From Thiospirochaeta perfilievii (lineage in GTDB: Bacteria; Spirochaetota; Spirochaetia; DSM-2461): 64,000 nucleotides of DNA. Under the pieces are notes generated by a model. It was given only the letters and a program-made list of their open reading frames with translations. It did no database searches and was not told where the DNA came from. Below are positions 2,397 through 62,518 of this stretch, in pieces (position 1 is the first letter of the stretch; each line of letters begins with the position of its first letter). Where the stretch lies: the NCBI RefSeq assembly GCF_008329945.1, contig NZ_CP035807.1, positions 3,534,001-3,598,000 on the forward strand, in the 5' to 3' direction. The position numbers and the translations under genes were made by a program.

Positions 2397-2949
2397 TAAT
2401 TATTTAAAGAAAAATATAAGTGAGGGTAGGTATCTTCATTCAATAAAAGTTGCTGAAATGTCTTCTTTGATAGCAAAATTAACTAGAAATGATATGGATA
2501 TAGCTTATATTTCTGGTCTTGCCCACGATATTGCTAGAGAGTTTAAGGTAAGAGATTTAAAGGAACAAATTTCAAAGTTCAATATTTTTTCAGAAGAGTT
2601 TTTAAAAATGCCTCAACTTTATCATGGGCCAGTAGGTGCTGCTTTTGTAAAAGAAGAATTCTCTATTATTAACAGTGATATTTTAGAAGCAATAATGTTT
2701 CATACAGTAGGTTTTCCTAATATGTGTAATAATGCTAAAATTATATATGTTGCTGATTATATTTCCCTAGATAGAACCCATATAGATAAGGGACTAAGGG
2801 AAGCTATTTTAAATAAAAGTTTAGATAAAATGGTTTTGGATGTTATTAATCTTTCAAAGGATTTTTTAATTAGTAAGGGTAATTCCTTGGTTAAGGAGAC
2901 AGAGGATATGTATAAGAGTTTAATGGAGATTAATTTTGAAAAAAAATAA
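2365..2949 (+). CDS. yqeK: YqeK-family HD-domain hydrolase (likely Ap4A hydrolase)
   Basis: 194-residue HD-domain phosphohydrolase. Visible metal ligands are His in YLHSIKVAE, the HD pair in GLAHDIAR, and the later HGPVGA and MFHTVG histidines. YqeK proteins hydrolyse diadenosine tetraphosphate symmetrically and are regularly encoded next to nadD, as here. The start at 2365, inside nadD, gives the usual family N-terminus (a short helix before the RYxHS motif); the later Met at 2458 would delete the first metal ligand. Confidence 0.85.
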   Translation: MDYTEVIVKIDNYLKKNISEGRYLHSIKVAEMSSLIAKLTRNDMDIAYISGLAHDIAREFKVRDLKEQISKFNIFSEEFLKMPQLYHGPVGAAFVKEEFSIINSDILEAIMFHTVGFPNMCNNAKIIYVADYISLDRTHIDKGLREAILNKSLDKMVLDVINLSKDFLISKGNSLVKETEDMYKSLMEINFEKK

Positions 2950-4114: not shown

Positions 4115-4460
4115 TGATGTGTTAACATTAGCAAAAGAGATTGAAGGGTTAAAGGGTAGTAATACATTAGCTCTTAATTTAATGGAACACTGTTCATGGA
4201 CAAGTTATTTTATAATAACAACATGTAGTAGTAATGCCCACTTAAAGGGTGTTGTAAATGAAATAAGAGGGAAAATTCACTCTATGGGATACTCTATAAA
4301 GCAAAATAGAAAGAATACTGGTGATAGTAACTGGGTTCTTCTTGACTGTGGAGACTTTATTATTCATCTTATGAATGACGAATTAAGAGAGTACTACAAT
4401 CTAGAAGAACTATGGAAAGATTCAGAAGTTGTTTACTCTTCATCTTCCAATGTATCATAG
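4095..4460 (+). CDS. rsfS: ribosomal silencing factor RsfS
   Basis: RsfS (Iojap/YbeB family) binds L14 on the large subunit and blocks subunit joining. Matching parts are the N-terminal ALNLMEHCSWTSYFIITTCSSN strand-helix region, NWVLLDCGDFIIHLM, and the closing YYNLEELW motif. I place the start at ATG 4095, preceded by AGGAAAGGA; an in-frame TTG at 4092 lies closer to that site. It closes the rplU operon. The last 28 bases overlap an oppositely oriented gene, leaving no room for a conventional terminator. Confidence 0.92.
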   Translation: MENVVINDVLTLAKEIEGLKGSNTLALNLMEHCSWTSYFIITTCSSNAHLKGVVNEIRGKIHSMGYSIKQNRKNTGDSNWVLLDCGDFIIHLMNDELREYYNLEELWKDSEVVYSSSSNVS

Positions 4461-4717
4461 TGATCCGCTTCTTCTTGATCTATAATACTTAAGTTATCGA
4501 TAATATCTGGGTCAACTGGCTCAGGTATGTCACTCTCCATCTCATCTTCAAAATCTTCATATTCATCCTCTATGGATTCATCTAAGACAATGCCATCATC
4601 TAAAATAGAATAACTATCATCTACTTCTTCGTAGTGATCATCTTCGCTATCACTGTATAAAAATTCATTTGAAGAAAACCCCATCTGTTTTTGACTGATC
4701 GATAAACCTGAAAACAT
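4433..4717 (-). CDS. small highly acidic protein, unknown function
   Basis: 94 residues, about one third Asp or Glu, with almost no basic residues after the first dozen. No signal peptide or known domain is recognised. The reading is supported by a good ribosome-binding site (AAGAGGAATATT before the ATG, on the minus strand) and by its place as a separate transcript upstream of nothing else. Its 3' end overlaps rsfS tail-to-tail. Composition suggests an intrinsically disordered or DNA-mimic-like protein, but that is inference only. Confidence 0.6.
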   Translation of the reverse strand: MFSGLSISQKQMGFSSNEFLYSDSEDDHYEEVDDSYSILDDGIVLDESIEDEYEDFEDEMESDIPEPVDPDIIDNLSIIDQEEADHYDTLEDEE

Positions 4718-4790
4718 AATATTCCTCTTATTAGAAAGTTAATATGAATATATTTATAATACATTGTCATTGTCAATAAGGTTTTCTTAA

Positions 4791-5267
4791 TTAAGTGATA
4801 TTAATGCAAATAAAGATTTTAAAAGTACCAAAAGCATCATTAATGTAGTATGTTTGGGAGACATCATAGTCTGAAACGCTAGAATATATCGAACTTCCAA
4901 CTATTATAGATGGAGGAGTTATATTTGAGTCTAAGCCAATACTAGAAAGGTGAATTGTAGATCTACCGGAAATTTGATTAGTTATTTCACAAAATGTAGA
5001 CTTGTGGAAGTCTCCAAAGCTTGATGAATCTATCTCCATACCAATATAATCAGCTAAAATATTAACAAAATTTGTAGCACTTTCAAAATCTGTTTGCAAC
5101 ATTAAATATCCGTGCAATCTTCCTGTAAACCCAATAGTGATTAATATGGAAGACTCAATATCTCTCTCTTCTAGACTTATCGTTGCATTATGGAAACCTG
5201 ATTCATTCATTATCTCAGATATTGATTTTTTGAAACATTCTAATGCCTCTTCAGATATTTTACTCAT
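4791..5267 (-). CDS. CheX/CheC-like chemotaxis phosphatase domain protein
   Basis: 158 residues consistent with a single CheX-type domain. CheX dephosphorylates CheY-P in spirochaetes and others. The active-site helix signature E-x-x-N is visible in FCEITNQISGRS (about residues 92-103), with the hydrophobic strand pattern LITIGFTGRLHGYLMLQ ahead of it (about 48-64). No cheA or cheY is nearby, so it is an orphan copy. The minus-strand start lacks a clear Shine-Dalgarno sequence. It could instead belong to the broader CheX-like domain found in other signalling proteins. Confidence 0.7.
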   Translation of the reverse strand: MSKISEEALECFKKSISEIMNESGFHNATISLEERDIESSILITIGFTGRLHGYLMLQTDFESATNFVNILADYIGMEIDSSSFGDFHKSTFCEITNQISGRSTIHLSSIGLDSNITPPSIIVGSSIYSSVSDYDVSQTYYINDAFGTFKIFICINIT

Positions 5268-8625: not shown

Positions 8626-9966
8626 ATGAAATATTATATCTTTATTACTCTATTGTTATCCTTCTCATTTACTTTCTCCAATGAAAATATTTTTGAGAAT
8701 AGTTATGAGCTCTATGGAGTTTCTAATCTAACAGATCAAGCTATGATTAGATCAAGAAGTGGAGATGATTATTTTTTTGGGATATCCCAGGGGAATTTAA
8801 TTGCAAAAAAAAAGGCTGTAAATAGTAGTTATTTTGATACCTATTATTTAGATTTTGGTCTTTTTGATATTGATATAATCCATGGTGTTAAAAGTGTAAA
8901 TTTTAGTAATGATAATAATATATTACTTATACATTGCAGGTCTAATTCTACTAATTACATTTTACTATTTAGATTTATTAACAACTCTTTAGTTTTAGTT
9001 AGAGATATATACCAAAGCGATAGTATTATAAAGTTTAAATCTATTAAGTTATTATTTGATGAAGCTATATTTATAATATATGAAAAATCAAAAATTATAC
9101 TTCTGAATTATTATTTGAATAAAGATGAAGTATTAAAAAACAGTATACCTATAGATGGGGATTATGAGAAAGATATTGTTTATACTGATGTTGCATATAA
9201 TATAAACATTTCCCTAATATTAAGGGATAAAAAAAGTTATCAACTTTGGCACTTCTATATCCATAATAAAGAAGTCGTTTCTAAATATATAAAAGAGATG
9301 CCTATTAATGACATTAAATCCTTTTCAATTATACAGACTACACCAAAAATACTCTTATATTCAGAAGATAAAGAGTTAAGTACTTACTACTATTTTAAAA
9401 ATAAGGGTTTAATGTATTTTGAAGTAGATAATTATTCTAAGGAAGGGCTTAACTATTACAGTAATAGGTTAAACAATTATTTAGCATTATATAGTGGTGA
9501 GAAACTTTTTTCATTAGACACTTTTGAGGAGTTAGATCCAGATCAATATATAATTGATTCAAGTATAAAGTACGCTTTTGAAGATATAAAAATTACTAGT
9601 ACTGGGGAAATAATTTCTGTTGAGTCAAATACTCAATCTTATCAAATAGATACATCTGTTATAAATAATTATTTTTTATTAAATAAGTTCCTTTTTACTA
9701 TTAAGGATAGTGGTATATCTAAAACTTTATCCTTAAATTATTTAAGTAAAGAAGGGATTGTTAATTTTTCTGAAATAGAGATGAATAATTTTGTTTTGAA
9801 TAGTGGTCTTCTAGATTATAAGCCTGGATTATTTATTCTACCTATAGAGAATCTGTATATTATAGAGAAAAATTGGGACTATCTTTTTTCTGATCACCCT
9901 CCAATAATATTTGATAACTATATTCTATTTAGTATAGCAAATGTTAAATATATAGGGGCTTTATAA
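8626..9966 (+). CDS. exported protein of unknown function, upstream partner of the giant protein
   Basis: 446 residues with signal peptide about 1-18 (MKYYIFITLLLSFSFTFS). The body is rich in short beta strands and aromatic residues, compatible with a repetitive beta-sheet or propeller fold; no named domain is recognised. Its TAA stop shares an A with the ATG of the giant gene downstream (TAATG), so the two are almost certainly translated from one message. This suggests a role in exporting, anchoring or assembling the giant protein. That role is inference from position only. Confidence 0.7.
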   Translation: MKYYIFITLLLSFSFTFSNENIFENSYELYGVSNLTDQAMIRSRSGDDYFFGISQGNLIAKKKAVNSSYFDTYYLDFGLFDIDIIHGVKSVNFSNDNNILLIHCRSNSTNYILLFRFINNSLVLVRDIYQSDSIIKFKSIKLLFDEAIFIIYEKSKIILLNYYLNKDEVLKNSIPIDGDYEKDIVYTDVAYNINISLILRDKKSYQLWHFYIHNKEVVSKYIKEMPINDIKSFSIIQTTPKILLYSEDKELSTYYYFKNKGLMYFEVDNYSKEGLNYYSNRLNNYLALYSGEKLFSLDTFEELDPDQYIIDSSIKYAFEDIKITSTGEIISVESNTQSYQIDTSVINNYFLLNKFLFTIKDSGISKTLSLNYLSKEGIVNFSEIEMNNFVLNSGLLDYKPGLFILPIENLYIIEKNWDYLFSDHPPIIFDNYILFSIANVKYIGAL

Positions 9967-12900
9967 TGGGTAAAAAAAGTCTCATAATTTACTTATTTTT
10001 AATAACAGTTAAACTCTTTTCATATGAAGCTGTTTTAATTACCCCAACATCTTCACAAATTGATAATTATTTTAAAGAATCTATTACTATCTATTGTCAA
10101 GCTGACGTTACAAGGAAGACAGCATCTTTTGATTTTGAAGTCTACTCTGAAAAAGGGAAGTTATTAAAAACGAGAAGAATAACTAATGATTATATCATGG
10201 ATTTACCGGTTAAAGATCCTGGAGTCTATACATTCAAAATTTATTATCGATATTTTTTAGGTTCTGGACGTGAGGAGCTTGACACTGCATCAATTACTGT
10301 TTTTAAAGATGTAAAAGCTCCAACTCTTTCAACTTCTATAAAACCTAACTCGTGGACAGATGGCCTTGTTACTGTAACTGCAACTGGAGAGGATGAAGAG
10401 TCAGGGTTAGATGAAATTGAGTATAGTCTAAATAATATCACATTTAATAAAGGTTCTGAGGTTAAATTATATAGTAATAACTCATATGTTTATTTTAGAG
10501 TGAAAGATAAAGTTGGAAATTTGTCTGAAACAATAAAAAGAGTTGTTAATAATATAGATAAAATATTACCTTCTTTATCAGTAATACAAAACCCAAATAA
10601 TGACACTTGGACAAATAAAAGTGTTTACCTTACAGTAAGCCCTATTACTGGACCATCAAAAGTTAATAAAATTTTATATAGGGAAGGAGATACTGGTAGT
10701 TGGAAATCTTATAGTTCTCCTATTAAAGTTAACGATAATAACTTTTTTTACTTTAAGGTTAGAAATAATGCGGGAATATGGTCAAAGGAGTATAAACATT
10801 TTGTTAAAAATATTGATAAGACTCCAGCTATACTAAATTTTTCAAACTTCCCCAATATATGGACAGATGGTTCTGTAACTGTTACTCCTACACCTTTTGA
10901 TGATGAGTCAGGAGGCCCCTATATAGTTCAAGTAAAAAATGAAAATGATATATATACAAGTGTTGATAGTGTAAAAGTTGATTCAAATAGTACTCTGAAT
11001 TTTAGAGTAAAAAACAGGGCAGGAAGTTGGTCAAATGATATACCATATGAAATAAAAAATATTGATAAAAGTGATCCAGTAATTGAACTTTTTGAATCTC
11101 CAAAGGGTTGGACAAATAACTCTAAAACTGTAACTGCTATAACTTCAGACCCAGAGTCTGGAATAATTTCAACAGAGTATAGTTTTGATAAGATAAATTG
11201 GTTTTATGGGAAAACTACAACTTCAATTGTTGAAAATTCAAAAATCTATTTTAGAACTACAAATGTTGCAGGTAGCACAACTTATAAAGATTTTATTATA
11301 GATAATATAGATAAAACTCCACCAACTTTTAATCTTAAAACACCTTCTATACTACAATCAGATCAATTTCAAATCGAAATTTTAGACCTGAACACTAAGG
11401 ATTTAGACTTAGGTACACTAAATGTTACAGTAGATGATAAAACAAATATTAACTTTATAGCTAAAAAGGATAGTGTTAATAATAAGTATGTTATTGATTT
11501 TAATATATTATCAAAACTAAAATTAGGGCCTCATACTATTAAATTTACAGTTACTGATAATGTTGGTAATAAATCTAAAGATAGTTCTTTTACTTTTTGC
11601 AGTGTTAAGGGTTTGCAGTTAAGTCTAGATAAATCCTCTTTTTTTATTATAGATAATTATACCCAAGGTGAAATAGTTTTAAAAACTTTAAGTTTGAAAA
11701 AACCAAGTGTTTCTGGTTTTAAACCTAATTCTACATATAAAAATAGATATTTAAGTAGTTCAGAATTTAACTATGAATATAGTACTGATGGAAAGAACTG
11801 GGTTCCCCTTATAAAGGACCTAAAGAGAGATACTGTTATAGGTAGTAACAATCAGCTAGATATTCTTGATGGTTCTAAAACTCTTTTTGTACGTGTTGTT
11901 GATAGTTATAATAATTCAAGTCCAGCTTTAGTTTACAGTTATACTGTTGATAAGACCCCTCCACAACTTAAGTTAATAACAACTTCGCCTTCAAACTCTT
12001 GGAGTTCAAAGGATATTAACTTACAATTATCAGTTTTAAATGAATCAGAGGAGTATAATATCTTCTATGATTATAAACCATTAGGTTCTGTAAATGGAAC
12101 CCAATACCCTTTAAATGATAGTGGTCTTATTACCCTAGGAACTAACTCTGATAATGGAAGTTACTCGTTTTATGCAAAAGATAGAGCAGGAAATATTACA
12201 GAACAAAAAAATAGAGTAACTTTCATCTCAAAGATTGATAAAAAAGTTCCCACAATATCTATTAGTGGAAATCCATCTACATGGACAAATAAGAGTGTAA
12301 CTTTAACATCAAATATAATTCATGGAGAATCGGGGATAAAAAGAACTCAGTATTCACTTAATGGTGGAGTTCAGTGGATAACAGGAGACTATGTAACTAT
12401 TCTCCAGAATCAGAATGATATTATGTTTAGAACTCAAAACAATGTTGATATCTGGTCTCCTGTAACAAAAATTGATGTTATATATATTGATAAAAAAGAA
12501 CCTGTTATCGACTTTAGTATTAGTGTAAATGGTAATGTTATGGATACTAAAGCTAATTCAAAAGTGGATATATCCCAACTATCTATAGAAGAGGATAATC
12601 TTAAAAATATTAAATATCTAATTGAAGGAACTAATATAACTAAGGAGTTAAATATAGGTAGTTCTTCAGATTTTAGTATCCCTCTTCCTAAATCCCTTGC
12701 AGAGGGAACTTATAATGTTGTTATTTATGGTGAAGATTTAGCAGGGAATATTGGTTCTCATAATAAGAGTTTTGTTTTAGATAGAACCCCACCATCGATT
12801 AAAGGTTTAGATTTGATAATCTCTAAGGATAATAAAATCTTAGGTAATGATGATGTTACAGGAGATCAAAATCTAAATATGAAATACTCCGGTTACGATA

Positions 12901-15900
12901 AAAGTATAATTAATCCAAGGTATAAATTCTATATAACTAAGGATCAACCAGGGGTTATAGAGAGTTTAGAATCAAAGGTTAAATTCTATAATTCTGAAAC
13001 TAAAATTAATCTTAAAGAAAATGGGCTATATTATATCTATACATATCTCGTAGATGATGCAGGAAATCTCTCTGAGGATTATATGTTTAGAACAATTAGA
13101 TTTAATAGTAGCTCCATTATGCCTCCTGAAATCTTCGGTGTTAAAGAGGCTAAACTAGCCACTGATGTTATTACATATAACAGTCCTCAATTTATAATAA
13201 CTCCTAAACTTAAAGATAGTCTCGGAGTTAATATTGATTATGGAGATATTATTATCACAGGGTATAATTATAAGTTATTTAAGGGTAGTTATTTAAATTT
13301 TGAAGAAGAGAATAATTTTTTATCAGGGGAGATTAGTGCAGAAGATGGCATATATACACATTTAGGGTTTGAATCTTTAGAAGATAATCTACCTAGCGAA
13401 TTCTATACTCTAATTGTTCAAGCTAAAAGTAATACAGATCAGTTAAGTCCCTATTCAAATAAATATCATTTTAGAATTGATACAACTCCCCCTGAGTTTT
13501 TAGAGGTAAACTCTTCTTCTCATACTGATGAGAATAAATATTACTCCTATGATTATGTGGATATTTTCTGGGATAATCCTTGGGATATGACAGGAGTAAA
13601 AAAGTATAAGTATTACTTAAGTAGCGATGGTCATAATTTCTCAGAAGGAGATACCAGCAATGTTATTAAAAATGGAGATAGATTTAACCTACACATACCC
13701 TTTGATAACACTACAGTAAATGGCTCCCTATTTGTTCATGTTGATGCCATAGATTATGGTGGTAATGTTAATAAAAATAATTCAAGAACTCTTGAAGTTA
13801 AGATAAATAGAGATATTCCTGAAGTTAAAATAGGTTCAATAAAAAACAGTATAGAGACTAGAAGTTCTTTGATTCGTTGGGAAGTTAAAAATCGTATAAT
13901 ATCCCAATCTATTGTTTTGGTAAAAGATGGAGTTAGTATAAGTACTATACTTCCAGGTTCTTCAAGGGAGTATTTATTAGATAACCTTGAACCTGGAGAG
14001 ACATATAAAGTAAAGATTTATGCTTTTTCAGACTCTACAGAGTCCCTTATTGGCATGGATTCAATAGAGTTTAACATTGATGATATTAGTAATACTATTA
14101 TTGAGCCAGAGAGTATAGGTTACACATCCCAGTTTAGTGGTTATAGAGTCGAAGGTGAATTAAATAGTAGTAATATATCATTGTCAACTGGAGTGCTTTT
14201 CATTCCAAAGGTTTTAGATTTTATAGATGGTGATGTAGTTATTAATGAGGTTAGTTTAGACAATCTTCTATTTGATAATAATAAATTTATTTCTGGTGAG
14301 AATAATAGTCGATCCTTTTCTACGACAATACACGGCTTTAAATTAAATCCTAATCTAAATAGTAGTATCATTATAAATCAAGGAGATGGATTGACTCTAA
14401 CTAAAAGGAGTTTAGAGTACAAAATAAATGAGAATGAGTTAAAAAATATTCTGTTTAATAATATATATATAAAATCTGCCTCAAGTTTAGATTTAGAATC
14501 AGATCAAAATGAAATTATACCCTTTGAAATTTTATCAACTTATAAAAATACCCCTTCATGGTTAATTTCAGGAGTCTCAAATGTCTCATTATATAAAAAG
14601 TTTTTAAAACTTAATAACGGATTTATTGATTTGAATCCTTATTCTGATCTAAATATTGTTGACTTTAACAATAGGGCTAGTAAAAAAATTGATCTATATA
14701 ATATTCTTCTAGATTCTAGTAGAACATTTATTAGTGGAGATATAGAAAATACACTACTATTTACCATTGGATTTGATGAAACTTCTTTAGGTTTGAAGGT
14801 TACAAATTCAAGAATTATACAAAATAAGCTAGTCATTGATAAAGCAGAGTTAAATTTGAAGCCAGGTTACAATGTTTATGACTCTGAAGGTAATATTAGC
14901 AAGGTAGAGATTGTAAACTTAAGAATAGATCAATACGGAAATATTCTCTCTTCTCCCACATTAGTATCCCCCTTTTATATAGATAAAGGGAATAGTTCCT
15001 TAATATATATTGATAATCTTAATTTTTCAAAGGGTGGGATTAGTGGAGACGGCAATGTTTTATATAATAACAATGTCATTAAGAACTCCAATTTTAAAAA
15101 TCTCTCCCTAACTAATTCTGGGGTAAGTGAATATTCTACAGGAGATTTAATAAACAATTTCAGTTTAATAACTAGATCAGGTTTTAATCTATTTGCCTTA
15201 GCTAATAGTATAAAAATAGTAAATAATGGTTATCTTATAGACCTAGGAGTTATTGATTTATCTCCCTTTGAAACAGGGTTGAAATTCAATATATTCGATA
15301 TGATTATTGATTTTAATTATAAGGATATTATTAGAAAAGGTATTAACTCTGTAGGGGAAGTCTTATTATTAAAAAATATAGACTATTTCAAAACCGTAGA
15401 TAACAGTTTTAAGGTTACTGATCTAGAACTTAATAATAGTAACCTAGTTGCAAAAAGAACGGAAATACAACTTCCAGATTTTTTTAAAACTGAAAATATT
15501 GTTATTCAAGATATTGTACTTGATATTAACCCTCAGACAAAAGTAGGAACATTTGGTAGTGGAGTAATTGATTCAGAAACAAAATCCATAACCTTAGAAA
15601 ATGGCTTTAAGATGATATTTAAAACAGGCCGATATCACGATAACTTAATAGAGATTCCAGAGTCCTATATATCACTTCCTACTGGCTCGAGTATAGAAAA
15701 AGTTAAACTATTAAATTTAAAAACAAATTTTTATGCTACTACTTATGATCCTCTACCTTCTAAAATAAGTTTTGAGAAAAATGGATGGAAGTTTAATATA
15801 TACAATCCATATTTTACAAAAGAGGGAATTACAGGTGAGACAGTTCTTGAATTACCTATCCTAGGAACTTTAGAGAGAGTAAATCTTGATAATTTTATAC

Positions 15901-18900
15901 TAAAATCTGATGGAACCTATGACATATTAGATACCGTTACTAAAACTTCTCAAGTTAACATTGGTGGCTATAATGTTTTAGTAGATGGAGTAACTATTTT
16001 AGATAATGCAAATGAACACATAATTAATTTTAAATCAGTAAACTTTTACAATCGGGATAAAAGTATTAATTTAGAAATTAAGGATATTTCTTTTAACAGT
16101 AATGGAGAGATACTTGCCTCAGGCTCAGAAGTTATCCCTGAATCTTTTGTAAGTGAAAATGGTTATACCGTAGAGGCTAGTGGAATTCAATATAGAGATG
16201 AGAAACTCTATTTAAAGGGTGACTTATATCTTCCAGAATTTATGGGAGCTTTAAAACCCTTAGTTTTTGATAACTATTCTATGGAAATAGACCTAGATTG
16301 GAATATTATATCTCCTCCTATTAAGAGTTCTTTGGGAGTCTTTTTTAATAATGTAGAGGTAAATATAAGTAATTTTATAATATATGAAGATGGAATATTT
16401 ATTGAAGATAGCTTGGTCAAACTAGATGATAATAACTCATTTATCATTAAAAATAGCGCATTTGATAGTGTTGGGACTATTTTAAGCAGAGGTTATATAG
16501 AAGTTGAAAATCAATCAATAACAATATCTGACTGGTCTATGATTTTAACACAGGGTGGATTTTCTAAAAAAGGGATTTTCCTAGAATCCCTGGTCACACT
16601 ACCTAAGGAGTTAGGTTATGGAACACTATACTTTGAAGATATGTTGCTTTATAGGGATTCGGATATAGTCAAATTTAAAACAAATACAGTTATTGACTCA
16701 TTGGAATTTTACTATAATAAAACGTTCTTTTCATTTGAAAAAATCAGATTAAACCCAGACTATATCACTATTTCTAATGGTATAATAGAACTCCCTCAAA
16801 ATGAACTTTTAAATGGTGAGGCTATAAATATAAGCTCTTTTAGAATCGGTAAGGATGGTTCTTTTCAACTTTCTGGATCAGATGTAGAACCTATTAGCAT
16901 AGATGGATTTGAGTTATATATAAATAACTTATCTCTTAAAGATAGTGTTTTGGATTTAGCGGGGTCTGTACAATTTCCTGTAGGTTTTGGGATTTCAGAA
17001 TTAGCGGGAAGAGTATTTTATATAAAAACATTTAATTACAACTTCGAGTCAAATCAATTAATTTTTGATGTTGAGTTAGATAGTGTTATTATAGAAGTTT
17101 TAGATGGCTGGACTACTGAGATATCAGAAATTAGTATTTCAAATAGAGGTATTATTGTTGGAAATGGTATTATAAATTTTCCAACTACTTGGTTAAATAA
17201 TATCTCTGTTGATAGTGTTGGATTTACAGATTTATACTTTGATTTTAATACAAATAAATTCGATATTGGTTCTATTGATATTAGTAACGTTATTGTTGAT
17301 TGCCAAGGGTACAACTTTACTATTAATAATATTTCATACTCCTCTTTAGACGGATTTATATTAGCTGGAGAGTTTCCATTAGATAATCTATTTAAAGGTG
17401 AAAAAACTTCTCCTGTATTAGTCATTGATAAGTTGCAAATAAATAGTGATTTTTCAATAAGAGAATTAATCGCTGGAGTTAAAGGCTTTAACCTCTCTTT
17501 AACCCCTAATAGAGAATTACTATATTCTGGTTATATCGGTATTGAATCATCTATAGACTATGGAGTTTTAATAAATTTAGATGGGAAGATAGAAATAGGG
17601 ACATCATTCGCTGTTGAAGATATGGTTGGAGATAGTTTACAGATAGAATCCTTTAGTTTTGATATGTTCAATAGGGAAATTATTAGCCTAAATGCAAAAG
17701 TTTTAATTGATGAAAAACGTTTTTTAAGTACTCAGGTTAGTGATTTTGAATTTGGTGTAAACTTTACTAACAAATCTGATGTTATAACATTTGTTTTAGG
17801 TGGTAATGTAGAAATCCCTAATTCATTTCCTGGAATTGGTGGAGAGATTTTTACACTATTTGGTGAGTTTGACTCCCTTGGTAATGTAAATAATTTTATC
17901 TCAAGTCTAACTATATCATCAGATAAACCACTATTAGGTGATATAACTTTAAAATCTGGTTCTAATGTAACACTTCTACCTATCCATAAGGTCGTAGGAG
18001 ATAAAAAATCTCTTAGTGGTTTAGAGTTCTCATTTAAAAATACGATGTTGGAATTTAGTAATAACTTTACAATAGAGAGACTTAGGGGAGGATCTATTGA
18101 AGTTAATGAGTTAATTCTTAATACAGAGATGGGTTTTGATAAATGTGACTTAAATTTTGAAATACCTGAAAGCTTTGACCTTTTTGATAATATTAAACTT
18201 TTAAATGGTTCAATATCCCTATTATCAAATCATGAGAATGATATAGTTACTTCCATCTCTGGTTCTCTTCAATTACCTAAAACTGTAGGTGACATTATTA
18301 TAGATATTAACAACTTTAGCGTTAGTTCTAAGGGTTATTTGAATCTTGATATTAGTGGTGAAGCTGATAATGTTACAATTATAGACCAACTAAAACTGAA
18401 TAATGCTAAAATTACAGTAGGAAGCAGTGTTAATAATGACGCACTGGATTTCTATATAAGTGGTGATTTTAAACTATTAAGTAGTTCGTTACCTAAGGAG
18501 ATAAGAAGTTCACTATTAACTGGTTCTATAATATTCTCAACTAATGGTGGTATAAAGTCTTTTAACCTAGGTTTAAATTCAGGAGAACCTCTAGAATACA
18601 AACTTATAAAAGGTGTTACATTATCCCTTAAAAAGCTATCGATTTCTGATCAGGGTATAAATTCCTCTGTCTCTTTAATACTAGAAAATGGTTTTTATGG
18701 ACTTGAAGGTTCATCTAGAACAGAGGGCTCCATTTTTATTGATTGGAATGGAAAGATTACTCAATCCAACATAACATTAACTACACTGTATCTTAAATAT
18801 GCAGATATGGGTTGCCTTATCTCAAATATGAAATTAAATGAGAATGGGCTTAATTTCCAGTCGGCAATATTAGAATTACCAACTTCTTTAGGTAGTGGCC

Positions 18901-21900
18901 AAGTTGAAATTAATAATGGTGGTATAAATAGTAGTGGAAACTTTTATGGAGATTTTAATGTTGGAGTTTTAAAGGTTGATATTTTAGGGTGTTCTATATC
19001 CCTCTTTACTCCAAAGTTAGATGTAAACAACCAACAAATAACTTGCTCAAAAGCAATGTTTGAACTACCTGATGCATTAGGGGCAGCAAGTGTAGAGTTA
19101 GCAGATGTTTCTATAGATTCAAATGGATTAAGTATTAATGGGGGTGGTTTTACACTTCCAGATATTGATACTGGGGTGATGAAATTCTCTAATATGGCTG
19201 CAATATTAACAATAAGCGGTGATGACTATGAAATTGGTGCAACAGGAACTGTTTTTATAGCAGGTATGGGTGAAATTGAAGCTACAATCTCATTTGTAGA
19301 TTTATCAATACCAAACTACCCCATTGGGTTAAAATATGCGTATTTTAGTTTTGAAGCATCAACTGGAGGTATTCCTTTAGCTACAACCGGTATGTTTCTT
19401 ACAGGTATAAGGGGTGGTTTGGCATTTGGTCCTCCTGGTAACGACCTTCCTAATGAGTTTAGAGAGAAGTTTACAGATGGAATGAGGATTCAGTTAGGAG
19501 TTACTCTTACTGATAAGCTTAAAAAAATTCAAGGTGAAGCAGACTTCTGGTTAAATGTCTCCAATATGGATTTTGCCCTAAAAGGAAAACTCCAATTCTT
19601 AAATGGATTATTTGAAGCTTGGGCTTTAGCTTTGTATACACAATCATATGGGTTAGAGGTTAGTGCTGGAGTCGATGTAAATTTAATAAATAAGTTTTTT
19701 GTAGAGGGATTTATTCGAGCTCATATTTTTGAGAAAAACAATATGGCAAAGTTCTGTGGTGAAGCAACTGCAGGAGTTTCTGTTCAGGACCTATTGTTTG
19801 GTTTTCCTGATAAACCTTTTAATTTAGGGGTTCTAGGACTAGAAGTTGGGGACTTTAAAGGGGATAGGCACGGGTTTAAAGGTTATATCTCCCTGAAAAT
19901 AATAGGGAAAAAGGGGTTCTATGTAGGAACAAATGGTGACTTTAAGCTTGGAGATGTTAATTCATATTCTCTTCTTGATAGTGTATCAAGGTCTATTAAG
20001 CCTAATAACTTATTAGGAGGATTAATAAATAAGAGATATTCAGTTGTAAGTGAGAATACTTTAAGTCGGAGTATAGAAAAACCTAACAGTCGGGAAAGAA
20101 TTATATTTAGTCTTGATTTTATAGATGGAGATCCAATTATAGTTGCAATAAGTCCTTCTGGAGTAAGATATTCAGAGGGTGATGAAAACGTGGTTGTAGA
20201 GAGAATTGCTAATAAAATATTAATGGCAGTCGTTAACCCTGAAGATGGCCAGTGGGAAGTTGAGGTTAATAACTTAGTACTAGGTAGTGAGTATAATTTA
20301 GAGGCTATTAGTTTTGATAAAAACCCTGAAATAGAGCTGGTTTCTCCTAGCTTTATTAAAGAACATAGTACAAAAAAGTATGATGTAAATGGTACTTACG
20401 TTATCTATAACAATCAAAATCCTGAAATTTCAATCTACGCTTCAAGGGAAAAGGGTGCTTTAAATGGGATTGAGTTAGGATCATTTTTTCCTAAAAAAAC
20501 AGATATATTTGATTACACCATAGATACTAGTGGATTAGATAATGGTGAATATTATATCTATGCAGGTATTTATGATGGTCAAAATCCAGAGCTATACAGC
20601 TATGCAGAGGGTTCAATAATTGTTAATAATGATATTCTTGGATTTCCTAAAATAAATGATTTAGTCGCTGGAATTTCAGATGATAATGTTGTTAATATCT
20701 CTTTTAGTCATGAATTGAAGTCTAAAGCTAAGGGTTTTAACTTAAATATAGAAAATAATGAAACAGGTGAGATTGAAATTTTAAACATTGGTTATTTAAC
20801 AAAGTTTACACTTTCAAACCTAACAAAGTCCGATATATACACCTTATCTGTAATACCTTATGACCATATTGGTCAAGCAGGGAAGAAATCAAACTTAGTT
20901 GTTGTTGACTATAATAAGAGTAAACAGTTAGTAAATAGTTTTAATTTACAAACAGACTCAATAATTGTTGATATAGATAGTAGTTCAAAAGGTTCAATAG
21001 TAGTAGAAGCAGAGCAATTTATTCAAACTAATGGTTCAAACGATTATGTTGAGTTAGAAATAAATAATATCCCTAGTTTTCTATCATTAAGACAGATAAA
21101 TAATAGGATAAATTTAGAAGATATTGGCAGTTTTGATTTTGATATAATATGTGTAGGAGAATATTTAATTCAAAATAATTATGGAATTGAAGTAAAAAAA
21201 TATGTAGAACCAGGTGAGTATTTTATAGATGTCTCAGTTAAAAACATAGGGAATGAAAATGTTTTCAAGGATATTTCTATTCCAGTAATAATAAAATACT
21301 CTGATCCCCAGATAGATAATATAATACCAAAAAACTGGCATGTTTACGATGAAACAAAAGTTGAAATTAAGGGTTCAGGTTTTTCAACTAATACTACAGT
21401 TAGTTTTGGAGGTGTAGAGTGTGAAGTTGTTAGGCAGAATCAGACTACACTAAATGTTATTGTGCCAAGTCTTAATTTAGATAATAGTGGGGTACTTAAA
21501 ATTTTAAACCCAGGATCTTTAGATGGAAGTAAAAAGATAAACCTATTAAAGCCATATTATAAAATTAATGAAATTAAAAAGTCAACAACAATAATAAGTG
21601 GTGGAAGTACTTGGCTATATAGTAAAATTAAACCGTATAACAGGTTTGAAGAAAGAGTATATTTTGAATTGATAGAAGCTCCAAAAAATTGGGATATATC
21701 CATAACAGAGAGTATAGATGTTAACTCTAATTTTGTGTTAAAGGTTACTGTTCCATTATTGACTCCTAATGGTTCATATCCTATTAAAGTTAAAACAGGT
21801 AATAGTATAAATACATATTTTGTAAATGTTGTAGATAAATATCCCTCTCCATATATCTCGGCACTCTCATCCCATAGAGGCAATATAGGAGATTCTATTA

Positions 21901-24900
21901 CAATCTATGGGTACGGCTTTTACCCTGACTCCGAAGTTAACTTAAATGGTATAACTATACCCAAATTTAATCAAAGTGAAGATTATATACAATTTATTCT
22001 ACCAGAAGATGCAAAAAATGGTGTATTAACAGTCAAAAGAGGTATGCAAACTTCAAATGGTGCCCTTTTTGAGATCCAAAATAATAACTTTAATATTTAT
22101 CCTCCTAGAGATACTATTCAACTTGTTCCTGGAACGAGTATCACAAAAAGAGTTTATATAAATGGATATGCTGATAATGTAAAATTAGATGTATATGCAA
22201 ATAGTAGCTTAATAAATCCTATTTTAAGCGAATCTAGTATTACTCCAAATGGTTTAGTTGATATAAGAATAGATACTAATAATAGTATAAAGAGTGGGAC
22301 ATATAATGTAACTATAGAAGGAAGAAGTAAGAGTATTATTAAAAGTAGAGTGATAACAGTTTCAATTGGGAATAATATCGCTTTTAAAAATAGTGTTTTA
22401 AAGGACGCAAGAGTAGATAATGAGTATAGTGATAGACTCATTGTGGAGAATAACCTAAATGGTTATTCATTTGATCTATTAGAAAATAGTACTCTCCCTT
22501 ATGGTTTAAGTTTAAATCGATTAACTGGTGAGATATATGGAGTCCCAACTAATCCTGGTTCTTATAATTTTAAAGTTAGAGTTAGTGAATCTAAACAAAG
22601 GTATAGTGAAAAAGAGTTCACAATTACAGTTCTTGATAGCGGCTGGTTTAGACAGCAGGGGCCTAATGGAAATAATAAATTTAATAATACCTTATCTCCT
22701 GGTAACGATAAAGTTTTATGGGAGTCTAAAAAAGATAAAGATGCAGAGTACCTCTTATCATCAATGGGAAATATTTATAGAGTATCAAATTCAACTATAG
22801 AGGCTTTTGATAAAATAACAGGGAAACTTAAGTATAGAATTAACGCAGAGATTGTAAAAACATCACTAAGTGGGGGATTTATTCTATCCTTAGAACGTAG
22901 ATTTAGAGACTCCTTAGATTTAACAAGTAGTGTTAGTAATACTCTCTATAATGATCAATATCTTATTATATATGATCAGAACACAGGAGGAGAAGTTGCA
23001 GCTTTTAAAGGAGTTTCACAGTATAATACCCTAAAAAATCGGGTATATATAAGGATAAATGGTAGAGTTGAATCCCTCTCTATTGATAACTTGGATGTTA
23101 GATCAGGTGTAAACAGTGTAGTTTTAGAAAATGGAGTAATTACCACAGAAGATTCTCTTCTCAAGCTTAATGAGAATAGGATTGAAGAGTTTCAAAATAA
23201 CAATTTCAACCTAGTTATTGAAGAAGATGTAAAGATCTGTTTTGTTACAACATATAAAGAGAATCTTTTTACTATGAATAACTATGGAAGATATCAAGAG
23301 TACAAAACAGGAAAAACTATTAACACCGGGATAGCTGATGGAAAATTAGCTGTTGGTGAGTATTTTACAGTTGCTTACAATGATTCAGAAATCTGCATAT
23401 TAAATAGATCAGATATGTCTTTAATTTATAAAAATATTAAAGTTGACGAACAACTGTTAACAAAGGATAAACTAATAATTTTAAATGAAACAGGGATAAC
23501 TTCAATTAATTTATTCTCTGGAAAGATCATATGGAGAGGATTGGGAAACTACAGATCTCTGATTTCATGTGGTAAAAATCTCTATGTTTTAGATGAAGAG
23601 AATAGGGTTATCTGTTTTGGAGGATCAGTAAATATTGAACCTCCTGTTACTACTCTTAACATTACACCAATAAAACCTAATGGATTAAATGGTTACTATA
23701 ATATTAATCCAATTTTTGATCTCTCTTCTTTTGATAAGGAAGGGGGGTGTGAGGCAAAATACAGTATCGATTCTAATAATTATATAAAGTATTCAGAGCC
23801 TAAAACTCTAGGTGATGGTAAATATACTCTTAGTTACTTTTCAACAGATAATTTAGGCTTATCAGAGAAATTATCATCACTAAAGCTAAAAATTGATACA
23901 GTTAAGCCAAAAACAGAAATGTTTATCGATTCAAAAAATAAAAATAGAGGTTTTTATAGGCAGGCTCTTACTCTGAATCTATTTGCCACCGATGAGTTAA
24001 GTGATATAAATAGTACTTATTATATAAAAAATGGGAAAAAGTTCACATATAAAGATCCAATATTTTTAGACAAAGAGGGCTCCTTCCAACTTTCATGGTG
24101 GAGTCAGGATAATGCAGGAAACTTAGAGTCAAAAGTTAGTAAAACCATATCCATTGATCTTAACAATCCAACGGTTAGTTATAACCTTGTTGATGATGGG
24201 GATAAAGAAATTTTATCTATAGAGGCGGAGGACTCATTTAGTGGGATTAACAGAGTGGAATATAAAATTGATGACAGTATTATTTCTAAATATAGTGAAC
24301 CTATCTCTTTTAATAAAGGCAAAATATATAAAATAACCTTTAGGTCTGTTGATAACTCGGAAAGGAGCTCCTACTGGAAAGAGATAGTTTTGGATCTTAC
24401 TAATATTGAGTCTGCTAATTTAATAGAAAACTTATCAACTAAGTGGGGTCAAAGTAGAGTCTCTATAAATAAAAATATTCAAATTGGTGATGATCTATTT
24501 ACAATAAAAAATAGTAAAAAGAAAGATATAAAGATAAAACAGCTTCCTGATTATTTAGCAGGTGGCGAGATGGTTCTTAACGACTATAATAATAAGAATT
24601 CAATGGATAAAAACTTTTACAGTTTTAATGCTGGATTAATAATAGATTTATATCTATTAAAAAACAAAGATTCTAGGATCATTTTAGATGATAGTTGGGA
24701 TTTAGTTGAAAAGGATGTGGAAATTTCCCCTGGTTATTTTCCTGGAGGGGCAGATGTCTATCATAAAATATTTGCACAGGGAGATTTTATTGTAATTCCT
24801 GGATCATATAATTGGAAAGATTCAAGTCCAAATATTATTATTGCAAAAAGAAATTCAGGAGCAAGTCTAAATATTATAAGTCCTACACCAGGTAAATCTT

Positions 24901-25823
24901 TATATCCATTAAGTAATTATTTCTGTAAATCTTCTTTAGTTGCAGGAGAAGTTTCTAGATTATGGTCTTATAGATTGTTAGGGGATGATTGGATCTCTCT
25001 AGGATCTAATACTAAAGGATTTTTAGAACTTCCATATCTAGACCAAAACAGTTCATTAGAGCTTAAAGTTGATGTTAGAGTGGAAAATCCTATGGATAGA
25101 GTAAAATATTATACTATATCAAAAAAAAGGGTATACAGTGTTAAAAACCGTAGTGGATTAGTTATATCTGAACCAGTATCAGGTTCACAAGTTCTTCTTA
25201 ATATAACTACACCACTTAAGTACTCTGTTACGGGTATAGAGGGGGATACTATTATTCCCAAAATTAGTTGGGAAACAAATTCTGGAGAAATATCTCAGGG
25301 CAATTATACCCCTAATTTAATAGGAATAACCGAGATTAAATCTATGTTTCTTACTTATGGTGAGTACATGAAGATAAATAAACATAAATTAAATGTGGTA
25401 GAGAAATATAAAAAAGAAGTTTTTAACTTTACAGAGGGCTTTTTAGGTAGGTATTCAACCCATGAAGATGGACGAGTTTATGGTTTCTCAGAAGATCACA
25501 GTTCTAATGCAAAGATAAATAATGGAAAAGTATCAGTTTATCTAAAGAAGAACTCATCCTTTGATTATCTGGTTAATAATGGCTTGTACCAAGTAAAAGT
25601 TTTATTAGGACCATTAAGTAAAAAAGACGTTCCTTATATAAAGTTTGAGGATGATACTATATTTATAGATACAACTCAGAAAAGTAAAATATATAGTGTG
25701 GAGACATCTGTAGATGTTAAGGATAATATCCTTACAATAAGCGGTTCTGATAATCTTAAAATTATTAGTATAGAATTAGTAAGAACATTTAATCATATAA
25801 AAAATGTAATTACTGGCCATTAG
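9966..25823 (+). CDS. giant secreted multidomain protein (5,285 residues)
   Basis: One uninterrupted frame of 15.9 kb. Signal peptide about 1-19. From about 118 to 452, four Ig-like repeats of 81-86 residues share IDKTxP, WTxxSVTVT, ESG and FRVKNxAG words; further Ig-like modules follow to about 1,370. About 1,380-3,060 is a long degenerate beta-repeat (listed separately). About 3,060-3,340 is a glycine- and aromatic-rich segment resembling a membrane-inserting or barrel region. Later come fibronectin-like modules, two TIG/IPT domains (about 3,777 and 3,959), a putative Ig domain (about 4,135), a PQQ-type propeller (about 4,226-4,558), OmpL47-like repeats (about 4,559-4,818) and a C-terminal CBM-like domain (about 5,149-5,285). 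No sortase, T9SS or autotransporter signal is seen. Likely a surface or periplasm-spanning structural protein, perhaps binding polysaccharide; function is inferred. Confidence 0.85.
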   Translation: MGKKSLIIYLFLITVKLFSYEAVLITPTSSQIDNYFKESITIYCQADVTRKTASFDFEVYSEKGKLLKTRRITNDYIMDLPVKDPGVYTFKIYYRYFLGSGREELDTASITVFKDVKAPTLSTSIKPNSWTDGLVTVTATGEDEESGLDEIEYSLNNITFNKGSEVKLYSNNSYVYFRVKDKVGNLSETIKRVVNNIDKILPSLSVIQNPNNDTWTNKSVYLTVSPITGPSKVNKILYREGDTGSWKSYSSPIKVNDNNFFYFKVRNNAGIWSKEYKHFVKNIDKTPAILNFSNFPNIWTDGSVTVTPTPFDDESGGPYIVQVKNENDIYTSVDSVKVDSNSTLNFRVKNRAGSWSNDIPYEIKNIDKSDPVIELFESPKGWTNNSKTVTAITSDPESGIISTEYSFDKINWFYGKTTTSIVENSKIYFRTTNVAGSTTYKDFIIDNIDKTPPTFNLKTPSILQSDQFQIEILDLNTKDLDLGTLNVTVDDKTNINFIAKKDSVNNKYVIDFNILSKLKLGPHTIKFTVTDNVGNKSKDSSFTFCSVKGLQLSLDKSSFFIIDNYTQGEIVLKTLSLKKPSVSGFKPNSTYKNRYLSSSEFNYEYSTDGKNWVPLIKDLKRDTVIGSNNQLDILDGSKTLFVRVVDSYNNSSPALVYSYTVDKTPPQLKLITTSPSNSWSSKDINLQLSVLNESEEYNIFYDYKPLGSVNGTQYPLNDSGLITLGTNSDNGSYSFYAKDRAGNITEQKNRVTFISKIDKKVPTISISGNPSTWTNKSVTLTSNIIHGESGIKRTQYSLNGGVQWITGDYVTILQNQNDIMFRTQNNVDIWSPVTKIDVIYIDKKEPVIDFSISVNGNVMDTKANSKVDISQLSIEEDNLKNIKYLIEGTNITKELNIGSSSDFSIPLPKSLAEGTYNVVIYGEDLAGNIGSHNKSFVLDRTPPSIKGLDLIISKDNKILGNDDVTGDQNLNMKYSGYDKSIINPRYKFYITKDQPGVIESLESKVKFYNSETKINLKENGLYYIYTYLVDDAGNLSEDYMFRTIRFNSSSIMPPEIFGVKEAKLATDVITYNSPQFIITPKLKDSLGVNIDYGDIIITGYNYKLFKGSYLNFEEENNFLSGEISAEDGIYTHLGFESLEDNLPSEFYTLIVQAKSNTDQLSPYSNKYHFRIDTTPPEFLEVNSSSHTDENKYYSYDYVDIFWDNPWDMTGVKKYKYYLSSDGHNFSEGDTSNVIKNGDRFNLHIPFDNTTVNGSLFVHVDAIDYGGNVNKNNSRTLEVKINRDIPEVKIGSIKNSIETRSSLIRWEVKNRIISQSIVLVKDGVSISTILPGSSREYLLDNLEPGETYKVKIYAFSDSTESLIGMDSIEFNIDDISNTIIEPESIGYTSQFSGYRVEGELNSSNISLSTGVLFIPKVLDFIDGDVVINEVSLDNLLFDNNKFISGENNSRSFSTTIHGFKLNPNLNSSIIINQGDGLTLTKRSLEYKINENELKNILFNNIYIKSASSLDLESDQNEIIPFEILSTYKNTPSWLISGVSNVSLYKKFLKLNNGFIDLNPYSDLNIVDFNNRASKKIDLYNILLDSSRTFISGDIENTLLFTIGFDETSLGLKVTNSRIIQNKLVIDKAELNLKPGYNVYDSEGNISKVEIVNLRIDQYGNILSSPTLVSPFYIDKGNSSLIYIDNLNFSKGGISGDGNVLYNNNVIKNSNFKNLSLTNSGVSEYSTGDLINNFSLITRSGFNLFALANSIKIVNNGYLIDLGVIDLSPFETGLKFNIFDMIIDFNYKDIIRKGINSVGEVLLLKNIDYFKTVDNSFKVTDLELNNSNLVAKRTEIQLPDFFKTENIVIQDIVLDINPQTKVGTFGSGVIDSETKSITLENGFKMIFKTGRYHDNLIEIPESYISLPTGSSIEKVKLLNLKTNFYATTYDPLPSKISFEKNGWKFNIYNPYFTKEGITGETVLELPILGTLERVNLDNFILKSDGTYDILDTVTKTSQVNIGGYNVLVDGVTILDNANEHIINFKSVNFYNRDKSINLEIKDISFNSNGEILASGSEVIPESFVSENGYTVEASGIQYRDEKLYLKGDLYLPEFMGALKPLVFDNYSMEIDLDWNIISPPIKSSLGVFFNNVEVNISNFIIYEDGIFIEDSLVKLDDNNSFIIKNSAFDSVGTILSRGYIEVENQSITISDWSMILTQGGFSKKGIFLESLVTLPKELGYGTLYFEDMLLYRDSDIVKFKTNTVIDSLEFYYNKTFFSFEKIRLNPDYITISNGIIELPQNELLNGEAINISSFRIGKDGSFQLSGSDVEPISIDGFELYINNLSLKDSVLDLAGSVQFPVGFGISELAGRVFYIKTFNYNFESNQLIFDVELDSVIIEVLDGWTTEISEISISNRGIIVGNGIINFPTTWLNNISVDSVGFTDLYFDFNTNKFDIGSIDISNVIVDCQGYNFTINNISYSSLDGFILAGEFPLDNLFKGEKTSPVLVIDKLQINSDFSIRELIAGVKGFNLSLTPNRELLYSGYIGIESSIDYGVLINLDGKIEIGTSFAVEDMVGDSLQIESFSFDMFNREIISLNAKVLIDEKRFLSTQVSDFEFGVNFTNKSDVITFVLGGNVEIPNSFPGIGGEIFTLFGEFDSLGNVNNFISSLTISSDKPLLGDITLKSGSNVTLLPIHKVVGDKKSLSGLEFSFKNTMLEFSNNFTIERLRGGSIEVNELILNTEMGFDKCDLNFEIPESFDLFDNIKLLNGSISLLSNHENDIVTSISGSLQLPKTVGDIIIDINNFSVSSKGYLNLDISGEADNVTIIDQLKLNNAKITVGSSVNNDALDFYISGDFKLLSSSLPKEIRSSLLTGSIIFSTNGGIKSFNLGLNSGEPLEYKLIKGVTLSLKKLSISDQGINSSVSLILENGFYGLEGSSRTEGSIFIDWNGKITQSNITLTTLYLKYADMGCLISNMKLNENGLNFQSAILELPTSLGSGQVEINNGGINSSGNFYGDFNVGVLKVDILGCSISLFTPKLDVNNQQITCSKAMFELPDALGAASVELADVSIDSNGLSINGGGFTLPDIDTGVMKFSNMAAILTISGDDYEIGATGTVFIAGMGEIEATISFVDLSIPNYPIGLKYAYFSFEASTGGIPLATTGMFLTGIRGGLAFGPPGNDLPNEFREKFTDGMRIQLGVTLTDKLKKIQGEADFWLNVSNMDFALKGKLQFLNGLFEAWALALYTQSYGLEVSAGVDVNLINKFFVEGFIRAHIFEKNNMAKFCGEATAGVSVQDLLFGFPDKPFNLGVLGLEVGDFKGDRHGFKGYISLKIIGKKGFYVGTNGDFKLGDVNSYSLLDSVSRSIKPNNLLGGLINKRYSVVSENTLSRSIEKPNSRERIIFSLDFIDGDPIIVAISPSGVRYSEGDENVVVERIANKILMAVVNPEDGQWEVEVNNLVLGSEYNLEAISFDKNPEIELVSPSFIKEHSTKKYDVNGTYVIYNNQNPEISIYASREKGALNGIELGSFFPKKTDIFDYTIDTSGLDNGEYYIYAGIYDGQNPELYSYAEGSIIVNNDILGFPKINDLVAGISDDNVVNISFSHELKSKAKGFNLNIENNETGEIEILNIGYLTKFTLSNLTKSDIYTLSVIPYDHIGQAGKKSNLVVVDYNKSKQLVNSFNLQTDSIIVDIDSSSKGSIVVEAEQFIQTNGSNDYVELEINNIPSFLSLRQINNRINLEDIGSFDFDIICVGEYLIQNNYGIEVKKYVEPGEYFIDVSVKNIGNENVFKDISIPVIIKYSDPQIDNIIPKNWHVYDETKVEIKGSGFSTNTTVSFGGVECEVVRQNQTTLNVIVPSLNLDNSGVLKILNPGSLDGSKKINLLKPYYKINEIKKSTTIISGGSTWLYSKIKPYNRFEERVYFELIEAPKNWDISITESIDVNSNFVLKVTVPLLTPNGSYPIKVKTGNSINTYFVNVVDKYPSPYISALSSHRGNIGDSITIYGYGFYPDSEVNLNGITIPKFNQSEDYIQFILPEDAKNGVLTVKRGMQTSNGALFEIQNNNFNIYPPRDTIQLVPGTSITKRVYINGYADNVKLDVYANSSLINPILSESSITPNGLVDIRIDTNNSIKSGTYNVTIEGRSKSIIKSRVITVSIGNNIAFKNSVLKDARVDNEYSDRLIVENNLNGYSFDLLENSTLPYGLSLNRLTGEIYGVPTNPGSYNFKVRVSESKQRYSEKEFTITVLDSGWFRQQGPNGNNKFNNTLSPGNDKVLWESKKDKDAEYLLSSMGNIYRVSNSTIEAFDKITGKLKYRINAEIVKTSLSGGFILSLERRFRDSLDLTSSVSNTLYNDQYLIIYDQNTGGEVAAFKGVSQYNTLKNRVYIRINGRVESLSIDNLDVRSGVNSVVLENGVITTEDSLLKLNENRIEEFQNNNFNLVIEEDVKICFVTTYKENLFTMNNYGRYQEYKTGKTINTGIADGKLAVGEYFTVAYNDSEICILNRSDMSLIYKNIKVDEQLLTKDKLIILNETGITSINLFSGKIIWRGLGNYRSLISCGKNLYVLDEENRVICFGGSVNIEPPVTTLNITPIKPNGLNGYYNINPIFDLSSFDKEGGCEAKYSIDSNNYIKYSEPKTLGDGKYTLSYFSTDNLGLSEKLSSLKLKIDTVKPKTEMFIDSKNKNRGFYRQALTLNLFATDELSDINSTYYIKNGKKFTYKDPIFLDKEGSFQLSWWSQDNAGNLESKVSKTISIDLNNPTVSYNLVDDGDKEILSIEAEDSFSGINRVEYKIDDSIISKYSEPISFNKGKIYKITFRSVDNSERSSYWKEIVLDLTNIESANLIENLSTKWGQSRVSINKNIQIGDDLFTIKNSKKKDIKIKQLPDYLAGGEMVLNDYNNKNSMDKNFYSFNAGLIIDLYLLKNKDSRIILDDSWDLVEKDVEISPGYFPGGADVYHKIFAQGDFIVIPGSYNWKDSSPNIIIAKRNSGASLNIISPTPGKSLYPLSNYFCKSSLVAGEVSRLWSYRLLGDDWISLGSNTKGFLELPYLDQNSSLELKVDVRVENPMDRVKYYTISKKRVYSVKNRSGLVISEPVSGSQVLLNITTPLKYSVTGIEGDTIIPKISWETNSGEISQGNYTPNLIGITEIKSMFLTYGEYMKINKHKLNVVEKYKKEVFNFTEGFLGRYSTHEDGRVYGFSEDHSSNAKINNGKVSVYLKKNSSFDYLVNNGLYQVKVLLGPLSKKDVPYIKFEDDTIFIDTTQKSKIYSVETSVDVKDNILTISGSDNLKIISIELVRTFNHIKNVITGH
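10317..11321 (+). repeat. four tandem Ig-like protein repeats in the giant gene
   Basis: Units are marked by IDK at residues 197, 283, 367 and 448 (spacing 86, 84 and 81 residues). Each carries W-T-x(2)-S-x-T-V-T, a D-x-E-S-G turn and F-R-x-K/T-N-x-A-G near the end. The pattern matches OmpL47-type or bacterial Ig-like domains of spirochaete surface proteins. The units diverge at the DNA level, so the expansion is old. Confidence 0.75.
14100..19160 (+). repeat. long degenerate beta-repeat region of the giant protein
   Basis: About 1,680 residues in units of very roughly 85-100. Recurring words are a strand ending in (E/Q)LPxxLG or a similar proline turn, then (V/I)x(I/L)xNFxLxxDG, then a G-Y or G-F strand and a short NNxS loop (for example near 15,840, 16,600, 18,880 and 19,060). 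The last units sharpen into FELPDALGAASVEL and FTLPDIDTGVM. I recognise no family. The regular amphipathic strand pattern would suit a beta-helix or a beta-groove like those of AsmA/TamB-type lipid-transfer proteins; this is inference. Confidence 0.6.
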
Positions 25824-62212: not shown

Positions 62213-62518
62213 ATGAAAAGTCGAAAGAGCCACGAAGAGTGGAAATTATTAGTATCAGAGTTCAATAAATCAGGCCAGTCAGTTGCAGCTTTTAGTAGAG
62301 AAAATAACCTAAAAGCATCAACTTTTATTTATTGGGTTAAAATGTTCTCTATAAATACTGAAAAATCAAATTTGGTTAAGATAAAACCTAAAACGAGTAA
62401 TTCTAAGAAAACTCATGATATTAAAATTATTGTTAATGATACAAAGATTGAGATCTGTGGAGTTATAAATTCAGATAAAATTAGTAAAATAATCGCTGTA
62501 CTAATGGAAGTTAACTGA
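62213..62518 (+). CDS. tnpA: IS66 TnpA-type accessory protein
   Basis: 101 residues with a helix-turn-helix (HEEWKLLVSEFNKSGQSVAAFSRENNLKASTFIYWVK) typical of the IS66 TnpA/InsA accessory family. The stop overlaps the tnpB start (TGATG type), as is usual in IS66. It is required for transposition in related elements. Confidence 0.82.
   Translation: MKSRKSHEEWKLLVSEFNKSGQSVAAFSRENNLKASTFIYWVKMFSINTEKSNLVKIKPKTSNSKKTHDIKIIVNDTKIEICGVINSDKISKIIAVLMEVN

Follow-up and report, generated by a model that had tools for sequence, protein, structure and literature searches.

Genes and features of the locus

The window, a 64,000-nucleotide stretch of the Thiospirochaeta perfilievii genome, contains one gene encoding an exported giant protein (P0002), directly preceded by a gene for a smaller exported protein (P0001). 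The features of the locus are collected in Table 1. The P0002 frame begins with ATG and has no internal stop across its 5,285 codons, and in none of the other five frames does an open stretch exceed 165 codons. At the base composition of the window, the stop probability in a random frame is 0.083 per codon, giving a log10 probability of about -199 for 5,285 sense codons. The stop codon of the upstream gene and the start codon of P0002 overlap by one base (TAATG), with AGGGG located upstream of this junction; promoter and terminator scans at the locus were uninformative. An earlier note, made from the sequence alone, had described a single uninterrupted frame of 5,285 residues, and this description is confirmed. 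Assembly artefact, which that note had named as a way for its reading to fail, and read-through were rejected because a paralogue in the same genome and homologues in 15 other genomes exist, most of them full length and some in single-contig assemblies, and because such a frame would arise by chance with a probability of about 10^-199.

Table 1. Features of the giant-protein locus (positions within the window)
Feature	Position	Strand	Basis
Exported protein of 247 residues	7748..8491	-	Relatives next to the paralogue of this genome (E = 7e-14) and next to the G059 homologue (E = 6e-18)
Upstream partner P0001, exported, 446 residues	8626..9966	+	Paralogous gene, conserved spacing
Giant exported protein P0002, 5,285 residues	9966..25823	+	ORF list and homologues
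Signal peptide (about residues 1-21)	9966..10028	+	Sequence, hydropathy, signal peptides of homologues
N-terminal Ig-like head (domains spanning residues 22-1380): OmpL47-type, Big_13, weak fn3; most variable part of the family	10029..14105	+	Pfam/NCBIfam
Predicted beta-repeat ribbon (residues ~1400-3000)	14163..18965	+	Repeat profile, AlphaFold model of residues 2330-3500
Most conserved block (residues 2930-3350)	18753..20015	+	Family alignments, structure model, amphipathicity
TIG domains and He_PIG Ig-like domain (residues ~3781-4222)	21306..22631	+	Pfam
Weak PQQ/BamB-like propeller (residues ~4247-4550)	22704..23615	+	Below-cut-off matches
OmpL47-type repeats (residues ~4584-4810)	23715..24395	+	NCBIfam

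The signal peptide of P0002 (MGKKSLIIYLFLITVKLFSYEA) is its only hydrophobic segment above 1.6 Kyte-Doolittle units, and hydropathy and sequence scans found no other transmembrane helix and no lipobox. This agrees with the earlier reading of the signal peptide as the sole visible export or anchoring signal, and the homologues likewise begin with signal peptides. Searches with Pfam and NCBIfam found no autotransporter C-terminal translocator, RTX repeats, or T9SS sorting domain in P0002.

The recognised domains are confined to the two ends of the protein. Pfam identified Big_13, He_PIG, and two TIG domains, together with a weak fn3 match, which bears out the Ig-like and TIG domains proposed from the sequence. 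OmpL47-type repeats occur at both ends (NF047446, 84 and 107 bits against a cut-off of 40), and the OmpL47 equivalog model NF047441 scored 59.8 bits over the whole protein against a cut-off of 250. OmpL47 of Leptospira, a spirochaete surface protein (PMC2935396), shares domains of this type with P0002 but is short (its model has 336 positions), and the model lacks the beta-repeat ribbon. Two other proposals fared less well: a PQQ/BamB-like match is present where a propeller had been suggested, but it is weak (PQQ_2, E = 0.0015, under its cut-off), and the carbohydrate-binding-like end is not supported, the only match being a galactose-binding one that was also under the cut-off (E = 0.026).

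Distribution of the giant family

Sequence comparison places P0002 in an undescribed family of giant, putatively envelope-located proteins of the Spirochaetia, of which our literature searches found no description. Members were present in 16 of the 395 genomes of the class (this genome and 15 others), mostly as single frames of 4,306 to 6,428 residues where contigs allow, including in single-contig assemblies. A profile of the conserved region recovered members at E < 1e-190 and nothing else, with no intermediates. With the same profile, no member outside the class was found among 296 genomes drawn from the phylum, and tblastn gave no match in 72,556 plasmids. A scan of named genomes with a three-sequence alignment led to uncultured Treponema MAGs, and a scan of genome contigs with the window protein alone gave no match.

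The second copy in the same genome (G000:C1:1197536-1222585) has 5,105 residues in its main frame and is about 27% identical to P0002. It looks damaged, with the part encoding the signal peptide in a different frame (a 269-residue ORF); an IS66-type element sits between this copy and its upstream partner gene, and an IS3-type transposase gene lies downstream. IS66-type accessory genes similar to that element are also found at positions 62213-62865, near the right end of the window. A homologue in G401 (L112, L115; G401:C1:1963166-1965249), a genome of the same family as the three-copy genome G270 discussed below, is split into two frames of 1,880 and 2,039 residues and looks broken.

Repeat core and predicted structure

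The core between the two ends carries a repeat whose units, about 70 to 72 residues long, are clearly detectable at residues 2036-3023 (window positions 16071-19034). Its consensus from an iterated profile is ISLSGSLVLPDSFPEGLAGTSLEINEFEIDSDGGIKSFDAGLSGLDTFTLFGGFTLEDGSLSVSKDGESILL, and the number of copies ranges from 7 to 14 per family protein, with 10 in P0002. This 70- to 72-residue beta-repeat is new, being absent from Pfam, NCBIfam, and PDB sequences. Residues ~1400-3460 gave no Pfam match that passed its cut-off and no NCBIfam match, the conserved block alone had no NCBIfam match, and a profile of residues 2330-3500 matched no PDB sequence. The "huge unrecognised repeat" of the earlier note has therefore stood, now with a defined unit length.

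Structure prediction by segments, which that note had recommended, yielded antiparallel sheets for both segments modeled. For residues 2330-3500 (16 sequences), AlphaFold predicted an all-beta meander (pLDDT, 74; pTM, only 0.35) with a short helix every ~63 to 72 residues in its later half. For the most conserved block (24 sequences), the prediction was one continuous open antiparallel beta-sheet (pLDDT, 86.4; pTM, 0.69). Family alignments show invariant Gly, Pro, and Trp in this block. Its family-averaged strand amphipathicity was 2.46, versus 1.40 for shuffled strands (Kyte-Doolittle units), the alternation of apolar and polar faces is clearest at residues ~3072-3325, and aromatics are enriched at the strand ends. 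These models suggest that the repeat core may form one very long two-sided beta-sheet. Since one face of such a sheet would be apolar, that face would have to be shielded, whether by lipid, by the outer membrane, or by a partner, and we rank contact with the outer membrane or with lipid as the most probable.

Fold searches with the models returned LptD, the ApoB100 belt, porin-like barrels, the SprA barrel wall, and chorein-like viral proteins, with TM-scores of only 0.1 to 0.4 and rmsd values mostly near 10 Å or more. At such low TM-scores, these matches probably indicate a long, gently curved single sheet and not fold identity. The beta-taco of LptD/LptA-type proteins, the ApoB100 beta-belt, and the grooves of VPS13, AsmA, and TamB share with P0002 a long single-layer antiparallel sheet (predicted for P0002) with one apolar face; P0002 differs from them in its 70- to 72-residue repeat and the lack of a membrane anchor, and no sequence similarity to them was found.

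The same results bear on a further reading, in which residues ~3000-3330 form a beta-barrel in the outer membrane, alone or as a section of a very large barrel, and the protein is an integral outer-membrane usher or receptor whose long arms extend into the periplasm and outside the cell. VIA matches to porins, LptD, AlgE, and TonB receptors reach Z scores of 10 to 13, the SprA barrel wall superposes at an rmsd of 4.2 Å over 223 residues, and the alternating apolar faces and aromatic strand ends would suit a barrel. However, rmsd values to closed barrels are mostly 8 to 14 Å, so that the confident model of the conserved block fits no closed barrel of known size, and there is no terminal insertion signal, because about 1,900 residues come after the sheet. 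We therefore regard a barrel as unlikely.

Partner genes

The upstream gene is tightly coupled to the giant gene in many members of the family. The gap between its end and the giant start is -11 to +4 bases in the 12 loci measured, and the encoded proteins have 230 to 583 residues, mostly with a recognisable signal peptide. This conserved spacing supports a dedicated partner gene, as the earlier note had supposed. The refuting case it named, that the two genes occur separately, is not upheld at these 12 loci, although three loci (G059, G142, and G192) have no upstream partner of the P0001 kind at that position. P0001 looks propeller-like by eye only and has no Pfam match; its sole significant similarity is to a 343-residue gene product beside the own-genome paralogue (E = 1e-6). 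Leave-one-out profiles link several of the upstream partners to each other but gave no link for P0001, the 343-residue protein, or the partners in G051, G308, G394, G274, and L095. A single family for all upstream partners was rejected, and for the unlinked members, which share position only, we claim no more than positional conservation because of these profile results.

In 12 of the 16 genomes, an exported protein of 900 to 1,900 residues was detected, usually encoded after the giant. The window locus does not have it, the giant being followed there by an ispE-like gene, but the locus of the own-genome paralogue does. By eye, this downstream protein has a Cys motif (DCIGF) and a His motif that suggested NlpC/P60, but the assignment was rejected, with no Pfam or PDB match. 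The cassette consists of an exported upstream partner, the giant, and usually the exported 900- to 1,900-residue downstream protein.

Association with type II secretion

Type II secretion systems (T2SS) in Spirochaetes have been reported from genome scans (Denise et al. 2019, PMC6668835). Of the 395 Spirochaetia genomes, 91 have the T2SS major pseudopilin (PF08334), and these include every one of the 16 with the giant (hypergeometric P = 2e-11 by genome and 4e-8 by genus, values that are too optimistic, as related genomes are not independent and genome size was uncontrolled); the other 75 T2SS-bearing genomes have no giant. In T. perfilievii, an operon beyond the paralogue (G000:C1:1224450-1233909) encodes the secretin (GspD), GspE, GspF, GspG, an N-methylated pseudopilin, and a prepilin peptidase, and a second T2SS-like operon with a GspG match lies at 2218675-2227996. 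The giant gene is within about 15 kb of T2SS genes at this paralogue and in G394, G270b, G274, G308, and G246, which amounts to ~6 of 13 testable loci (chance, ~1e-6 or less), and the linkage is repeated in four families. The other 7 testable loci, including that in the window, do not adjoin T2SS genes.

P0002 resembles T2SS exoproteins in its N-terminal signal peptide, in the presence of a T2SS in its own and every other carrier genome, and in the frequent position of its genes beside a T2SS operon. Gene content and gene order thus suggest that the giant is a T2SS substrate. The earlier note had called the export route unknown; the protein's own signals do end at the signal peptide, but T2SS co-occurrence and linkage now provide a likely route. 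Known T2SS substrates are mostly enzymes and toxins and are far smaller than P0002. One point against such export is that an outer-membrane pore would need to pass a 5,000-residue protein. The literature searched names no giant substrate of a spirochaete T2SS and no T2SS substrate of such size or fold. The family represents a defined and testable candidate substrate class for the spirochaete T2SS. Very large extracellular proteins have also been described in another phylum (Giant1-5 of Apilactobacillus kunkeei, PMC12863079); these have thousands of residues, as P0002 does, and P0002 differs in its diderm host, T2SS linkage, and coupled partner gene.

Sequence variation and gene conversion

In the most similar pairs of family members (the copies within G270, a Treponema-family genome, and a G270 copy versus a Treponema MAG), the first 250 to 750 residues differ most. 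The first 250 residues are only 30 to 34% identical, and later parts of the same pairs reach 60 to 100% identity. The three G270 copies share exact tracts of 1,937, 1,437, 4,701, and 1,745 bases, and the adjoining DNA is about 67 to 85% identical, which indicates recent intragenomic gene conversion. The variable N-terminal head and the mosaic copies are consistent with an exposed head; taken together, the conversion and the variability of the head would suggest that selection acts at the cell surface. The G270 copies (L042-L045, L150, L151) are located at about 709k, 1481k, and 1764k of G270:C1, and each is preceded by a gene that, by eye, is apolipoprotein N-acyltransferase-like.

Proposed role at the cell surface

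The explanation we favor, to which we give about an even chance, is that P0002 is a giant protein of the envelope, exported by the T2SS, that combines a variable Ig-like head with a beta-ribbon core facing lipid or membrane; both the T2SS dependence and the lipid contact are inferred. The signal peptide would take the protein into the periplasm, where the upstream partner may help it fold, and it would then cross the outer membrane via the T2SS secretin and reach the cell surface. There the variable head would point outward, and the repeat core of ~2,000 residues would form one long antiparallel sheet, with its apolar face covered by outer-membrane lipid or another hydrophobic ligand. A sheet covered in this way could keep the giant in place on the cell with no need for a lipid anchor or transmembrane helix. 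The lipid contact is a guess from the apolar face, as the structural matches have low TM-scores. The 70- to 72-residue repeat would add a further case to the few proteins that have very long sheets with two distinct faces. A bolder version, in which the core is a new lipid-carrying beta-groove of ~2,000 residues placed at the surface by the T2SS in a protein with a recombining, variable head, is speculative and probably wrong, but if true, the groove would be a bacterial counterpart of the apolipoprotein belt or of an extracellular lipid bridge.

Lipid could instead be carried between the membranes along a long beta-groove of the AsmA/TamB or VPS13 type, making the giant a periplasmic bridge, with its link to the T2SS either coincidental or a sign of outer-membrane biogenesis common to both. 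The PDB fold list is headed by LptD and the ApoB belt, the best matches in the viral library are chorein (VPS13-like) proteins (E = 5.5e-5, with low TM-scores), and the repeat has a short helix and 4 to 5 strands per period of 63 to 72 residues. Both models are antiparallel sheets, and their matches to groove proteins have low TM-scores. An AsmA/TamB-style N-terminal helix could in principle be supplied by an uncleaved signal peptide-like segment. However, no AsmA, TamB, or chorein Pfam family matched in 16 and 15 family members, apart from the signal peptide there is no transmembrane helix, nor is there a lipobox, that would fix one end in a membrane, and the variable head and the large Ig, TIG, and OmpL47 domains that flank the core are typical of exposed proteins. 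As a bridge would also leave the strict co-occurrence with T2SS unexplained, we consider it improbable, to much the same degree as the barrel.

Still less probable is an ordinary giant adhesin with a long repeat stalk and Ig-like ends, a reading suggested by the place of large repeat surface proteins as one main group among huge bacterial proteins (PMC11573180), by the OmpL47-type domains, and by the gene conversion in G270, because it would make an accident of gene order out of the T2SS association in 16 of 16 genomes and four families, and because a simple stalk would seldom contain a conserved block in which Gly, Pro, and Trp are invariant.

Other exported proteins near T2SS operons

The neighborhoods of the T2SS operons contain further genes for exported proteins. 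A small lipoprotein recurs in or beside spirochaete T2SS operons (L070:2886-3560, L045:13762-14409, L072:3507-4025, and L054:5950-6666) and might serve as a pilotin or GspC substitute; its copy in T. perfilievii has a CarboxypepD_reg-like domain. A gene for a clostripain-family lipoprotein (Peptidase_C11, E = 7e-51; L039:7091-8377) lies between the paralogue cassette and the T2SS operon. The L070 operon, one of those with the small lipoprotein, is followed by a gene for an exported RHS-repeat protein of 2,033 residues (L070:8405-14503).
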